A DNA stretch of 20,794 nucleotides from a virus, in the IMG/VR virus record IMGVR_UViG_3300048583_000089, positions 1 to 20,794 of that record, one strand, 5' to 3'. The position numbers were made by a program, and so were the translations under genes. The notes below the pieces were generated by a model. That model did no database searches and was not told the DNA's origin. It saw only the letters and a list, made by a program, of their open reading frames with translations. This document shows, piece after piece, positions 7,382-18,923 of this stretch. Within the stretch, counting starts at the first letter, position 1. Each line of letters begins with the position of its first letter.

Positions 7382-7738
7382 TCACCCGTAGATGGCGACC
7401 CAGAAGCCGCCCGTCGAGGAAGGCGGCAAGCTGATGATCGCTTCGATGCCGAGTTGCGTTGTGCGCCCACGGGCCGCTGCGCCACCAATGACCGACTCGA
7501 TACCGTCCTGTGTGACGCGGACGGAGCCCGCTGCGCCACCGATGATGCCTTCAATGCCCACCTGCGTGACGAGGTTCGGCCGCAACGGGATGATGGCTTC
7601 GATGCCGACCTGTGTCGTGCGGACGTTCGCGGCGGCACCGCCGACGACCGCCTCGACGCCGGTCTGTGTCGTGCGCCCGGACCCGGCCGCACCTCCGGTG
7701 ACGCCTTCGATGCCTGTCTGCGTGACGCGACCGGCCAT
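7382..7738 (-). CDS. Six-fold VTQxGIE repeat protein, probable fibre or appendage component
   Basis: This 118-residue protein starts one base after the previous stop. Almost the whole protein is a tandem array: the core [VT]-T-Q-x-G-[IV]-E-[AGS]-[IV] recurs six times with TQ at residues 6, 24, 42, 58, 76 and 94, separated mostly by 'GGAA..-R' linkers. The period is 18 residues, with one unit shortened to 16. The array ends with a distinct aromatic tail 'GGFWVAIYG'. Regular short strands with Gly/Ala turns suggest a beta-solenoid or fibrous fold. Similar 'RVTQ.GVE' repeats occur in phage virion proteins, and the neighbours here are tail tip and structural genes. A structural or adhesive function is inferred; no enzymatic motif is present. 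Confidence 0.65.
   Translation of the reverse strand: MAGRVTQTGIEGVTGGAAGSGRTTQTGVEAVVGGAAANVRTTQVGIEAIIPLRPNLVTQVGIEGIIGGAAGSVRVTQDGIESVIGGAAARGRTTQLGIEAIISLPPSSTGGFWVAIYG
7430..7729 (-). repeat. Six tandem 54-bp coding repeats
   Basis: The DNA encodes the six VTQxGIE units of the 118-residue protein. The repeats are coding, diverged at the base level and mostly 54 bases long, with one copy 6 bases shorter. Copy number in such an array could change by slippage or recombination. Confidence 0.65.
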
Positions 7739-14199: not shown

Positions 14200-17100
14200 T
14201 CAGCCCTGAACGATGGCGCGGATGGCCTTGCGATTGTCCTGCAAGAACTTCATCTGCGCCTTCGTCCCGGCCCGGCTCTGCATCCCCCGCACCACGAGGC
14301 CATCCTCGAGCCCGATCATCGCCTCGAAGCCCGTCGTCGTACTCGCGCCCTCACGCGAGGCCGTAGCCGTGCGCTTGCCGACGTCCACGAGCCCCCCGGC
14401 AGCGTAGGCGGGGAGATCGCGGGGGCGTAGGGACATGCTGTTGAGTTGGTGGAACAGCCGCTCCCCGTAGTGGTCGACTGAGGCTGCCCGGATGACGTAT
14501 TCCCGGTCACTCAGGCGGGCGAGGACCGAGTCGCTCGTGGGCGTGCCCGGCCCCCGGACGCGCCCGCCCGGCACGGCGTCGAGGACGCCCCCACCCTGCG
14601 CGAGGGCAGGCAGCGGGCCGACGACGCGCCGCGCGGCCCAAGTGCCCGGCGCGCTCCCGGCCACCGACCCGCCCTTGGCGTACCCACGCAGGAAGCGCCC
14701 TTCGCGCGCGTCCACGCGCCCTCCGGTGGCCGCAACAGGCAGCAGGGCGCTGCCCCCCGAGGTCAGGGTGAAGCCGATCCCCTGTAGCAACTGCTGCACC
14801 GCGTACTGAATGAGCATCTGCCGGATGATCCCGGCGATGTCCGCCACGATGGCCTTCGCCATGTCGCTGAACGCCTGACTTGCCGACTTCGACCCGTCGA
14901 TCAGCGCCGTGAAGGCCGAGTCGATCTGATTCGTCAGCGCGCCTTCGAGTCGGTCGCCGAGACCGTCAAAGATCCTCTGCGTCGCCGAGGCTGCGATGGT
15001 CAGATCCGACATCCGCCCCTCAAGCTCTTCGAGGTACTTCAACGTCTCCGGGTTCGTCGGGTTCGACGCCTTGATCGTGGCATAGGTGCGGGCAATGACG
15101 TCAGCCGTCTGATTGTACGCCTCGCGCAATTGCCGCTGCCCCTCCACGCGCGAGATCGTGCCGGTCTTCACCTGCGTCTCAAGTTCGCGCTGCTTGCGGG
15201 CAAGCCCCTCCTCAGACTGCTCCACCTCGGCGCGTCCGGCATCGACCGGGGCGTCGACGGCCTGCTGCCGTCGTGCCGTGGCGCGCGTGCGAAGGTCGCG
15301 CACTTCCTGTGCGACCGTGGCGCTGATCGGGTTCCCGTCCTCCGCCGTGTTCGCCTTCTCAATCGCCAAGGCGTACAACTCGATGGCTGCCGCCGCGTCG
15401 AGGTACTCCTGTTCTAGGATCTCGAGCCCGGCGGCGCGCGTCAGGGTGCCATCCCTGATCTGCTGCTCGACCTCCTTCTCCTTCGTCGCCAGAGCCGTCT
15501 CAACGGCCTGCGCCTCGCTGCTCGCCTTGTCGGCCGTGATCTTCAGGAGTTGCAGGTTGTACAGCTTGCCCGCGATGGCGATGGCCGCGAAGTCCGACTG
15601 TGCGACCGCCGCCGCCGTGAACTTCTGGAAGCGATCGAGCGCCTCGATGCGCGCCGCCTCGTCGTCCTTCCCCTCGGCGCGCAGGGCATCGAGGAACATG
15701 CGCCGACGCTCGTCGAGGTATTTCCGCTCGGCGTCCGCGCGCTTCTTCAGCGCCTTCTCGTCCTCGTTGTCGCCGGGCTTGCCCTTGAAGCTGAAGTCAC
15801 CCTTCGGTGGCGGCTTCTTGTAGAGCTTGTCCTGCGCGTCCTGCGAGCTACGCACGACGTCCTCGAACCACTTGTCCAAGTTCGCGGTCTCGCCGAGCTT
15901 GAGGAAGTTCTTCTCGAAGCCATCCGCCGTCAGGCGCGCAATGCCGATCAGCTCCTCGCCCCGCTCACGCAGCCCGGCTCCCCACTCCTTCCCGAGTGCC
16001 TCGCCGATGCGCCCCAAGGCGATCTCGATGAGGCCGAGCGGTGGCAGGACGATGAGCGTGAGCGAGTCGCCCACAACCTTGATGAGCGACCCGATGAAGC
16101 GCACGGCATCGGCAATCAGCGCCGCCGCAAAGGCGATCCCCTGAAAGACGACCTTCAGCGTGCCCGACGTCGTGAGCGACCCGAGCAAGCTCCCGGCGAG
16201 CTTGCCCGCCTCGACCACGATCTGCCCGAGGAACCTCGCCATCCCGATGAAGGCGTCGACTGTGTCGAGGACCGTCTCGCGATTCTCAAGCAGCCACCGC
16301 GAGATGTCCCCGAGCACCTTGACGATCCCCTGCGCGACGTCGATCAGGACATCGCCGAGCTTGGCATACACCTGCTCGGCGATAGCGGCGAGTCCGGCCA
16401 CGGCAGGCCCGATCTCGGCCGTCGTCGTGTCGAAGAGCGAGTCGAGGATGATGCGGGCAGCGGTCTTCGTCCGGTCGAAGAGGGGTTTGGCGATCTTCGC
16501 GGCGAACGTATCCACGGCCTCTTCGAGGTTGGACAGGATGCCGGTGAACGAGTTTGCCACGGCATCGCCCGCGAGCGCGAACGACGCGAGCTTCGCGTCG
16601 AGGAGGTCGTAGACCTTGCCCTTCGCCTTCGCGACTTCGAGTTCCTGCTTGGAGATCTGAAGGATCTGATTGAGGCGGGCGTTGCGCCCGGTCTCACCGG
16701 CAAGGACGGCGCGGGTTTCCTGTCCGATCTCGCGCAGGGGGATGCCGAGCGCGCCCATCGCCTGCGTGATCTTGACCGTCACCTCGCGCGTCTGATCGAG
16801 GTTCAGCCCCATCTCGGTGGCGGGGCCGAGGGCCACCCGGAAGCCCTCGGCAATCTGCTCGGTGGTCGCGGCCGTCTTCAGGCCCGCAATCCGAATCTTC
16901 TCCATCTGATCGGCCGCAAGCACGGTCGAGGCACGAAACTTCTCCATGCCCTCCACCTGCTTACCCGAGCCATCGCGGATCTCGCCCTGCGCCGTGATGA
17001 TCGACGCGAGGGACAGCTCGGTGTCCTCGAAGAACTGATTGGTGCGGATGCCGATGTCGGTGATGCGGATGGCAGCCGCCCCGGCCGCGTCGAACGCCGC

Positions 17101-17322
17101 GCCGATGGACTGCACCACTTTGAGGAAGGCGGTCGCTGCGACCTGCCCGGCAAAGACCCCGGCCGCGAGCTTCGTGACCGACTGCTCGGCGACCTGAAAG
17201 CCCCCACCATTGGCGAAGCGGCGCGCCTTGACGTCGAGACGTCCGAGGTCGCGCTCGATCTGCGCGATCAACTGCCGGACGTTGTCGTCCTTGCCGCTGA
17301 ACCGAATAGTGACGTCAGCCAC
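14200..17322 (-). CDS. Tail tape measure protein
   Basis: This is the second longest gene in the window (1040 residues), starting with GTG at 17322. It lies after the chaperone and before the tail tip genes, the invariant place for the tape measure. Residues 50-300 are helical with a conserved-looking tape-measure core. Residues 380-445 contain hydrophobic stretches ('VVFQGIAFAAALIADAVRF', 'SLTLIVLPPLGLIEIAL'), usual in proteins that are injected and cross the membrane. Residues 520-780 are charged coiled coil with an internal duplication. Residues 800-847 resemble the lambda tape-measure C-terminal domain, and residues 924-946 carry the common 'GPGTPTSDSVLARLS...EYVIRA' motif. By the usual rule of about 1.5 angstroms per residue the tail would be roughly 150 nm long. 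Confidence 0.92.
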   Translation of the reverse strand: MADVTIRFSGKDDNVRQLIAQIERDLGRLDVKARRFANGGGFQVAEQSVTKLAAGVFAGQVAATAFLKVVQSIGAAFDAAGAAAIRITDIGIRTNQFFEDTELSLASIITAQGEIRDGSGKQVEGMEKFRASTVLAADQMEKIRIAGLKTAATTEQIAEGFRVALGPATEMGLNLDQTREVTVKITQAMGALGIPLREIGQETRAVLAGETGRNARLNQILQISKQELEVAKAKGKVYDLLDAKLASFALAGDAVANSFTGILSNLEEAVDTFAAKIAKPLFDRTKTAARIILDSLFDTTTAEIGPAVAGLAAIAEQVYAKLGDVLIDVAQGIVKVLGDISRWLLENRETVLDTVDAFIGMARFLGQIVVEAGKLAGSLLGSLTTSGTLKVVFQGIAFAAALIADAVRFIGSLIKVVGDSLTLIVLPPLGLIEIALGRIGEALGKEWGAGLRERGEELIGIARLTADGFEKNFLKLGETANLDKWFEDVVRSSQDAQDKLYKKPPPKGDFSFKGKPGDNEDEKALKKRADAERKYLDERRRMFLDALRAEGKDDEAARIEALDRFQKFTAAAVAQSDFAAIAIAGKLYNLQLLKITADKASSEAQAVETALATKEKEVEQQIRDGTLTRAAGLEILEQEYLDAAAAIELYALAIEKANTAEDGNPISATVAQEVRDLRTRATARRQQAVDAPVDAGRAEVEQSEEGLARKQRELETQVKTGTISRVEGQRQLREAYNQTADVIARTYATIKASNPTNPETLKYLEELEGRMSDLTIAASATQRIFDGLGDRLEGALTNQIDSAFTALIDGSKSASQAFSDMAKAIVADIAGIIRQMLIQYAVQQLLQGIGFTLTSGGSALLPVAATGGRVDAREGRFLRGYAKGGSVAGSAPGTWAARRVVGPLPALAQGGGVLDAVPGGRVRGPGTPTSDSVLARLSDREYVIRAASVDHYGERLFHQLNSMSLRPRDLPAYAAGGLVDVGKRTATASREGASTTTGFEAMIGLEDGLVVRGMQSRAGTKAQMKFLQDNRKAIRAIVQG
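15010..15480 (-). repeat. Internal duplication in the tape measure protein
   Basis: Residues 615-640 (starting 'EKEVEQQIRDGTLTRAAG') and residues 711-736 (starting 'QRELETQVKTGTISRVEG') align without gaps, sharing the pattern E-x-E-x-Q-[IV]-x-x-G-T-[LI]-[TS]-R-x-x-G and a downstream [EQ]-x-x-Y. Weaker similarity continues in the helices that follow, giving a repeat unit of about 96 residues. Such units are a plausible way for tape length to change by duplication. Confidence 0.6.
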
Positions 17323-17334
17323 AGGATCTCCTTA
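17323..17334 (-). promoter_or_regulatory. Ribosome-binding site of the tape measure gene
   Basis: The sequence TAAGGAGATCCT directly precedes the GTG at 17322. The AAGGAG Shine-Dalgarno (17333-17328) overlaps the TAA stop of the frameshifted chaperone and sits five bases before the start. This decides the start of the tape measure protein and suggests that its translation is coupled to ribosomes finishing the long chaperone form. Confidence 0.7.
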
Positions 17335-18053
17335 GTCGGTGTGTCCCCCCTGTAGCAGCGGGTCGGGGACGGGCTTCTGGGCAAGGCCCCCGAGGACGTA
17401 GAGCAGCACCTCGAATTGGTAGCGATCCTTGGCGTTCGTCCGCATGTGCCGCTCGTAGGCGAGCAGGGCTTCGCGAAGGGGCCAGTCTAGGACGCGCTGC
17501 TGCTCATCCCAATCTCCGTCGGCAAGCTCTCGGACGATGTGCTCCCACGGTCCTCCGAGGACGCCACGGGGTCCATCGGTGCGTCGGCGGGCAAGGTCGG
17601 CGAGGTCGTGCTGTCGGCGCTTGCGCTCGGCTCGGGGCTTGTCGCGTCGGAAGAGGTCGGCGAAGTCCGCGAGGACACGAGCGCGTTCGTGAAAAAACCG
17701 AGCAGCACCCCGGCCATCGCGTCCCGCAGGCGCGTCTTGTCGACGTGCTCGGTGAGATCGGCGAGGAACTCGGCCGTCTGCCGGGCCGTGGCCTCGGCAA
17801 ACTTCTCTCCCTCAGGCACGAAGAGCCCCCCGAGGAGATCGAACAGGTGCCCGCTCTCGTACATGCCGAGGATGAGCGCCTGCACCGCCTCGCTCGCCGA
17901 GGCCCCTTCGTTGAGTAGGCGCGCCACATGACGCGAGCCCTCGCCAAAACCACTCGCGCGCACGATGGCGGCGCAGTAGGTGTCCTGTCGTACCGTGGTC
18001 CGGGGCGACATGATGAAGCGTCGACCCGCCAGTTCCAACGTGACGTCGTCCAT
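17332..18053 (-). CDS. Tail assembly chaperone, long (GT-like) form via -1 frameshift
   Basis: If ribosomes slip back one base on the T TTT TTC heptamer, 121 shared codons are followed by 119 residues in the -1 frame, ending at TAA 17334-17332 and giving a 240-residue fusion. The extension reads as real protein, unlike the frame-0 tail. It is rich in helix-forming and charged residues, and contains 'GPWEHIVRELADGDWDEQQ', 'RVLDWPLREALLAYERHMR' and 'DRYQFEVLLYVLGGLAQKP'. This extension covers the otherwise unexplained space between the short form and the tape measure gene, stopping nine bases before its start. It has no plausible ribosome-binding site of its own. In lambda the T domain of gpGT binds the tube protein; the same job is inferred here. 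Slippage itself is predicted, not observed. Confidence 0.78.
17487..18053 (-). CDS. Tail assembly chaperone, short (frame-0, G-like) form
   Basis: This 188-residue frame-0 product starts with the ATG at 18053 after GGAGG at 18062-18058. Residues 1-121 look like a folded, mostly helical domain ('DVTLELAGRRFIMSPRT' at the start, later 'TAEFLADLTEHVDKTRL' and 'AMAGVLLGFFTNA'). The remaining 67 residues are a low-complexity Ser/Thr/Pro/Ala tail, which is what reading out of the main frame over a coding region tends to give. In lambda-like phages the gene between tube and tape measure encodes chaperone G, with a longer GT form made by -1 frameshifting. The slippery heptamer at 17691-17697 and the long open -1 frame fit that scheme. 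The protein would bind the tape measure and recruit tube subunits. Confidence 0.78.
   Translation of the reverse strand: MDDVTLELAGRRFIMSPRTTVRQDTYCAAIVRASGFGEGSRHVARLLNEGASASEAVQALILGMYESGHLFDLLGGLFVPEGEKFAEATARQTAEFLADLTEHVDKTRLRDAMAGVLLGFFTNALVSSRTSPTSSDATSPEPSASADSTTSPTLPADAPMDPVASSEDRGSTSSESLPTEIGMSSSAS
17691..17697 (-). promoter_or_regulatory. -1 ribosomal frameshift heptamer T TTT TTC
   Basis: On the transcript the heptamer UUUUUUC is in the correct phase (U UUU UUC in frame 0, encoding Phe-Phe at codons 120-121), and it matches the X XXY YYZ rule with X=Y=U. It lies at the border between the folded first domain and the low-complexity tail of the short chaperone form. A 5-bp inverted repeat CACGA/TCGTG (17691-17687 and 17680-17676) follows at once with a 6-base loop. 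It starts too close to be a typical stimulatory hairpin, so its role is uncertain. Confidence 0.75.
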
Positions 18054-18104: not shown

Positions 18105-18923
18105 TTAATACTGGATGATCGAGTACAGCGGCGACGCGGACGACCCACCGAACGCCCCGGCGCTGTCGTCCTGCAACGCGATGGAGATGCTCGCGTTGCT
18201 GAAGTCCGTCGAGATGAAGTTCAGGTCGCCATCCGGGGCCACCGCCCCGTTCCAGAACTCGAGCTGGAACTTCGGCCCCGTCGTCGGGTCCGGCACGAAC
18301 AGGCCCGAGACCTCGATGAAGTTCTGCGTGCCACCACGGATCGTCTTCGCCTGCCCGGCCGTCACCGCCGCCGGGGTGTAGTCGATCGTCAGGTCGTCCG
18401 CGCCGTTCGTCGTGACCGTCGAGGCGGCGAGGATCGTGATGACGCCTCGGGTCAGGTCGACCGTGTAGTCGGTGTTCAGCACGGCGGTCGCGGCACCCAC
18501 CTCGACCGTGACGGCCGAGATCGCGCCGATCTTGGCGACCTTGAAGCTCTTGCCCCCGAGGGCCGCACCGAGGGTGGCGGCGGGCACGTTGGCGAAGAGC
18601 ACCTCGCTCGTGACGGCGGACGCAGCCTGCGTGTAGTCCACGCTGTCCGCCATCATGAGCAGCTCCATGTTCCGGTAGCTGAACTCGTCGAACTGGAGCT
18701 TCAGGGTGACGAGGCGGCGCTGCAAGCGCCGGGCGTACAGCGGCCGGGCCGCGCGCATGGAGGAATACTTCTCCAACAGCGTGTCCGCCGTGTTCGTGGC
18801 GTACAGCTCCACGTTGCCGACGTGGAAGTACCCCGTCCGCGCGTCGCTGACGTGCTTGTCGAGGTAGATGTCCCCTGCGCCGATGTACAGGTTGTCGGCG
18901 GTCGGGCTGATGTTGAGCGTCAT
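18105..18923 (-). CDS. Major tail protein (tail tube)
   Basis: This 272-residue protein starts with the ATG at 18923, preceded by GAGGAG at 18936-18931 with good spacing. It resembles a tail tube family common in siphoviruses. An N-terminal 'YIGAGDIYLDK' segment is followed by 'TGYFHVGNVELYATNTAD', a 'YSSMRAARP' segment, and a helix 'FSYRNMELLMMADSV'. A second half rich in short beta strands includes an inserted small domain ('GGKSFKVAKIG' to 'LTIDYTP') and ends with 'LEFWNGAVAPDGDLNFI'. The protein would polymerise into the tail tube on the tape measure. The gene sits between the terminator-like gene and the frameshifted chaperone, the canonical position. A strong hairpin follows it. Confidence 0.82.
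   Translation of the reverse strand: MTLNISPTADNLYIGAGDIYLDKHVSDARTGYFHVGNVELYATNTADTLLEKYSSMRAARPLYARRLQRRLVTLKLQFDEFSYRNMELLMMADSVDYTQAASAVTSEVLFANVPAATLGAALGGKSFKVAKIGAISAVTVEVGAATAVLNTDYTVDLTRGVITILAASTVTTNGADDLTIDYTPAAVTAGQAKTIRGGTQNFIEVSGLFVPDPTTGPKFQLEFWNGAVAPDGDLNFISTDFSNASISIALQDDSAGAFGGSSASPLYSIIQY

Follow-up and report, generated by a model that had tools for sequence, protein, structure and literature searches.

A gene between the tail tube and tape measure genes of an unclassified environmental phage very probably (roughly 93%) encodes a tail assembly chaperone of the G/GT kind known from lambda and SPP1, with a predicted programmed -1 frameshift; the assignment is made by position and gene anatomy. 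We analyzed IMG/VR virus record IMGVR_UViG_3300048583_000089, a stretch of 20,794 bases with 67% GC that we call the window. From a single start, this gene would give rise to two tail assembly chaperones. All parts of the locus lie on the minus strand, a point on which a preliminary description of this DNA was silent:

18105..18923, minus strand: major tail (tube) protein; matches phrog_807 'major tail protein with Ig-like domain' at 5.4e-32 and NCBIfam NF052337 tail tube at 1.8e-37, above cut-off
17487..18053, minus strand: frame-0 product G, 188 aa, from an ATG at 18053; 121 residues common to GT plus a 67-residue Ser/Thr-rich tail
17691..17697, minus strand: candidate slippery heptamer T_TTT_TTC (U_UUU_UUC in the mRNA), in phase in the later part of G
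17487..17690, minus strand: two-frame overlap of 67 codons, where the tail of G (frame 0) coincides with the beginning of the T extension
17332..17691, minus strand: -1 frame T extension, 119 codons plus TAA (17334..17332); 121 G residues and the extension make up the predicted 240-aa GT fusion
14200..17322, minus strand: tail tape measure protein, 1040 aa, with a GTG start at 17322; matches PHROG tape measure families down to 4.9e-14

The anatomy of the locus agrees with what had been proposed for it. The preliminary description gave the gene order as tube, chaperone, tape measure, and the chaperone gene indeed lies between the tube gene (18923..18105) and the tape measure gene (17322..14200) on the same strand. 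It read a U UUU UUC in the correct phase, which we find as T_TTT_TTC at 17697..17691, and 119 open -1 codons ending nine bases before the tape measure start, which matches a TAA at 17334..17332 and a GTG at 17322. Its fusion length of 240 residues is likewise right, 121 and 119 codons adding up as claimed. A GGAGG Shine-Dalgarno sequence stands directly upstream of the G ATG, and the tape measure Shine-Dalgarno, AGGAG, overlaps the GT stop (local sequence TAAGGAGATCCTGTG).

The second half of the gene lacks a start codon of its own, as had been asserted. The -1 frame stays open upstream as far as 17811, and we found no ATG, GTG or TTG in it from 17811 to 17445, where the first ATG occurs and keeps only 37 residues. 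This startless open frame runs up to the tape measure start. By itself, a long open -1 frame carries little weight, because DNA of 67% GC leaves 52% of such shadows open, as counted for 66-codon -1 shadow frames in the window's known genes. The case for the reality of the -1 frame rests on its codon-usage signal and on conservation in relatives.

The frame favored by codon usage changes along the locus. We scored each frame in bits/codon with a model trained on the window's other genes. In the part of G shared by both products, frame 0 scored +0.41 bits/codon versus about -1.0 in the other frames. In the part read in the -1 frame only (17486..17335), past the frame-0 stop, the -1 frame scored +0.26 versus -0.83 and -1.39 in the others, which bears out the earlier impression of protein-like sequence. 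GC by codon position in this same part (0.78, 0.38, 0.86) has the pattern of real codons. The -1 stretch is protein-coding, as seen from codon usage and GC position in the window and from dN/dS in the relatives L006 and L008 only.

The 67-codon overlap looks dual-coding. Frame 0 scored +0.06, frame -1 +0.05 and the third frame -1.26 bits/codon. Among 761 single-coding chunks of known genes used as controls, real frames averaged +0.57 and the +1 shadow reached at most -0.36. The overlap thus acts like doubly coding DNA, because both of its frames lie near zero whereas +1 shadows never exceed -0.36. The preliminary description had treated the frame-0 continuation as a Ser/Thr-rich low-complexity tail. 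The tail is indeed 43% Ser and Thr, but this richness is uninformative by itself because it falls inside the range of this genome's +1 shadow frames (mean 32%, 99th percentile 46%), and by codon usage the tail looks like more than mere waste. A stronger reading is possible but doubtful: a truly dual-coding overlap whose two products, the Ser/Thr-rich G tail and the start of T, each have a function and are under selection, within a pair that has no sequence kinship with known G/T families.

G carries an in-phase X_XXY_YYZ heptamer in its later part, and the heptamer is the sole one of its sequence in the window. TTTTTTC has one copy there versus 0.19 expected, with at least one copy in 17 of 100 shuffles. 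The heptamer contains the only A6/T6 run of the window, and TTT is a rare Phe codon in the window's genes (17 TTT versus 164 TTC). Pseudoknot-free folding of 45-100 nt after the heptamer gave no RNA structure of unusual stability (z -0.34 to +1.0). Downstream structure is apparently not involved at some tailed-phage frameshift sites (review PMC5009743).

The architecture recurs in distant relatives that were chosen blind to the heptamer. We gathered loci by tail tube similarity alone, because G and T themselves find no relatives. In most loci that include the tube as well as the tape measure start, the ORF after the tube is overlapped by a startless -1 frame reaching the tape measure start. 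After near-duplicates and loci with unscorable layout were set aside, 15 loci, window included, could be counted; 13 had an in-phase X_XXY_YYZ (Y being A or T) in the overlap, versus 1.21 expected from codon-shuffled overlaps (nominal P 2e-14, ignoring common descent), and the remaining two still keep the -1 overlap. The heptamers comprise A_AAA_AAG, G_GGA_AAC, G_GGA_AAG, G_GGA_AAA, A_AAT_TTC, T_TTT_TTC and T_TTT_TTT, and the direction and place of the shift are constant among relatives although the heptamer varies. Beyond the frame-0 stop, the codon test favored the -1 frame in all 12 relatives tested, and in the close pair L006/L008 the -1-only stretch has a dN/dS of 0.15 in the -1 frame versus 2.5 and 1.4 in the others.

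Departures from this layout are few. The preliminary description had named two findings in relatives that would count against it, the joint absence of heptamer and open -1 frame, and a start codon of its own for the second domain; the comparison came out in its favor, most tube-selected loci keeping the layout, with a few distant exceptions. One is L048, a distant Cylindrospermopsis phage with two separate genes. L023 may have an upstream start for the -1 frame, the layout is absent from L021 and L022, and L009 is atypical, with short G and T and no tail-frame match within the criteria used.

These observations bear on other readings of the locus. If the assembly or sequencing had lost one T from a longer T run, the real gene would be a single in-frame G-T ORF, and the frame change does coincide with the sole six-base homopolymer of a metagenomic contig. 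The frame-0 tail would then be a meaningless +1 shadow, yet at +0.06 bits/codon it tops all 761 controls, and the same layout is found in many independent relatives with other heptamers. The dual-frame codon signal of the overlap thus argues against such an error, and together with the shared layout it led us to reject this explanation as highly improbable. Chance is a poorer explanation still. About half of the 66-codon -1 shadow frames here are open by chance, so the -1 frame could be a shadow of GC-rich DNA and G the sole product. Past the G stop, however, coding-like signal is present in the -1 frame only; 152 nt preceding the tape measure gene would be left non-coding, and L006/L008 keep the -1 stretch under purifying selection. 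On the strength of that codon usage and that selection we rejected a chance open frame, and its probability seems to us negligible.

The T part could also be a separate gene, coupled to the end of G and begun at its own internal start. Databases list the T half as short genes with internal starts in Salmonella phage FSL SP-030 and Ruegeria phage V16, and L048 has two separate genes. The window itself offers little room for such a start: ATG, GTG and TTG are absent from 17811 to 17445 in the -1 frame, the first ATG retains 37 residues, and the sole near-cognate codon with a Shine-Dalgarno-like sequence is an ATC at 17538, an improbable start. The -1 coding signal is moreover present already in the overlap. 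We rejected an internal start because the start codons are missing, and give it as slim a chance as the sequencing error.

Neither half of the gene resembles a known G or T in sequence, so the GT-like label rests on position and mechanism. Searches of Pfam, PHROG and NCBIfam with the window's G and T returned no family at a meaningful score: G had no Pfam or PHROG match, T a match of 0.19 at best, and hhalign gave a probability of 0.1%. Direct searches with both halves in viral contigs and phage records found no relatives, one search giving chance-level matches only. Viral-contig searches with the window's tape measure, hub and adjacent tail proteins yielded 0-1 locus each, none usefully spanning the chaperone, and queries with the tail tube recovered no locus from bacterial or archaeal genomes. 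The relatives' G proteins are recognized by PF23789 ('Pre-tape measure protein') and by PHROG 'tail assembly chaperone', and PHROGs named tape measure recognize some of their T proteins. Profiles built from the relatives' G and T did not pick out the window's G and T in a six-frame translation; the T profile of all relatives had rows L031, L036 and L054 cut in the wrong phase, and a seven-sequence profile without such rows was equally negative. AlphaFold models were mostly helical and of low confidence (pLDDT 62-63), and fold searches from these low-confidence models gave no meaningful match. G/T tail chaperones are noted for low sequence similarity (PMC5009743). The preliminary description's GT-like chaperone thus stands on position, phase, codon usage and conserved layout, but not on sequence homology.

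Among known systems, SPP1 offers a close parallel in layout. Its gp17.5/gp17.5* pair shares with the window the order tube, chaperone, tape measure and the slip site UUUUUUC (PMC6316719). The published description gives gp17.5 as 173 aa and gp17.5* as 297 aa with 112 shared residues (PMC6316719), and by that description they are close to the window's 188, 240 and 121. SPP1 likewise has a long frame-0 tail, about 61 residues to the window's 67, a long -1 extension and a tape measure gene beginning just past the -1 stop; its frameshift, too, was identified by bioinformatics only. Slip site and stop are on average 26 nt apart in SEA-PHAGES and 36 nt apart in the Xu set, against which the window's 67-codon overlap is long, a feature that SPP1 shares (PMC10885494 for the averages).

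Other phages share the place and direction of the shift. In Pseudomonas phage MP48 (Casadabanvirus), an annotated gpG and a joined gpGT follow an Ig-like major tail protein and precede the tape measure gene, with an in-phase T_TTT_TTC as in the window and a 44-codon Ser-rich frame-0 tail; its G and T show no similarity to the window's by profile search. The chi-like Salmonella phage FSL SP-030 encodes a 'pre-tape measure frameshift protein G-T' of the same place and direction, with a different in-phase heptamer, A_AAA_AAG, and again no similarity to the window by profile search. The slip site of lambda is GGGAAAG, unlike the window's, and the window's halves have no family-level sequence match. 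In layout the window resembles lambda gpG/gpGT, where a -1 frameshift near the end of the chaperone gene makes a rarer long form (PMC5009743). The roles of gpG and gpGT were demonstrated experimentally in lambda: the tape measure protein is bound by both, the tube subunit by T, and the ratio of the two forms is important (review PMC5009743). TP901-1 mutants that lack gpT fail to form tails (PMC4493119).

By analogy with lambda, the window's pair would work as gpG and gpGT do. On U_UUU_UUC most ribosomes would stay in frame 0, yielding G (188 aa). A small share would slip back by one base, both Phe tRNAs re-pairing from UUU UUC to UUU UUU; their product, GT (240 aa), would end just before the tape measure gene. 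The tape measure protein may be coated by G, and the T part of the rare GT copies may recruit tube subunits and so start polymerization. The occurrence and rate of slippage and the roles of G and T are predictions; the phase of the heptamer, the startless -1 frame, its coding signal and the conserved architecture are observed here. The G/GT kind of frameshift is long known, and the window adds a further predicted example in an unclassified environmental phage, mildly uncommon for its 67-codon overlap and the sequence isolation of both halves. It would be one more clear case from an uncultivated phage of recoding conserved across long-tailed phages whose proteins are no longer alignable. The T half of such genes escapes gene callers or is given a wrong start, which calls for joined annotation.

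Records of the relatives illustrate how variably the T half is annotated. In Pseudomonas phage YuA (L049:2961-3299) and Bordetella phage MW2 (L055:6571-6909), the annotated tail assembly chaperone has an in-phase GGGAAAC 15 codons from its end, with a long open -1 frame. The YuA record carries no annotation of the T half, which MW2 lists as a separate 'tail chaperonin'. At L052:5812-6009 and L054:5079-5288, the latter in Ruegeria phage V16, the T half is annotated as a short separate gene with an internal start, and the V16 gene bears the name 'tail length tape measure protein'. These short separate genes are likely mis-started annotations.

Some relatives without a strict heptamer carry G_GAA_AAG in phase at the same place (L020:5193, L031:1556, L036:5658 and, in V16, L054:4980). 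There it encodes ..GG(L/V)EK.. and lies 22-23 codons upstream of the frame-0 stop; the -1 frame after it is open, with the T-type consensus, and the motif may be a degenerate slip site. At L018:4216-4686, a short tandem repeat lies within a 57-codon overlap and is translated as DAERDAERDAERDE in the -1 frame, as PSETPSETPSETSE in frame 0. Elsewhere in the window, two minus-strand ORFs at 7382-7738 and 1-1500 have internal repeats, with units of about 20 residues such as TQVGIEGIIGGAAG and units such as LAGSVTPSGALIRR.
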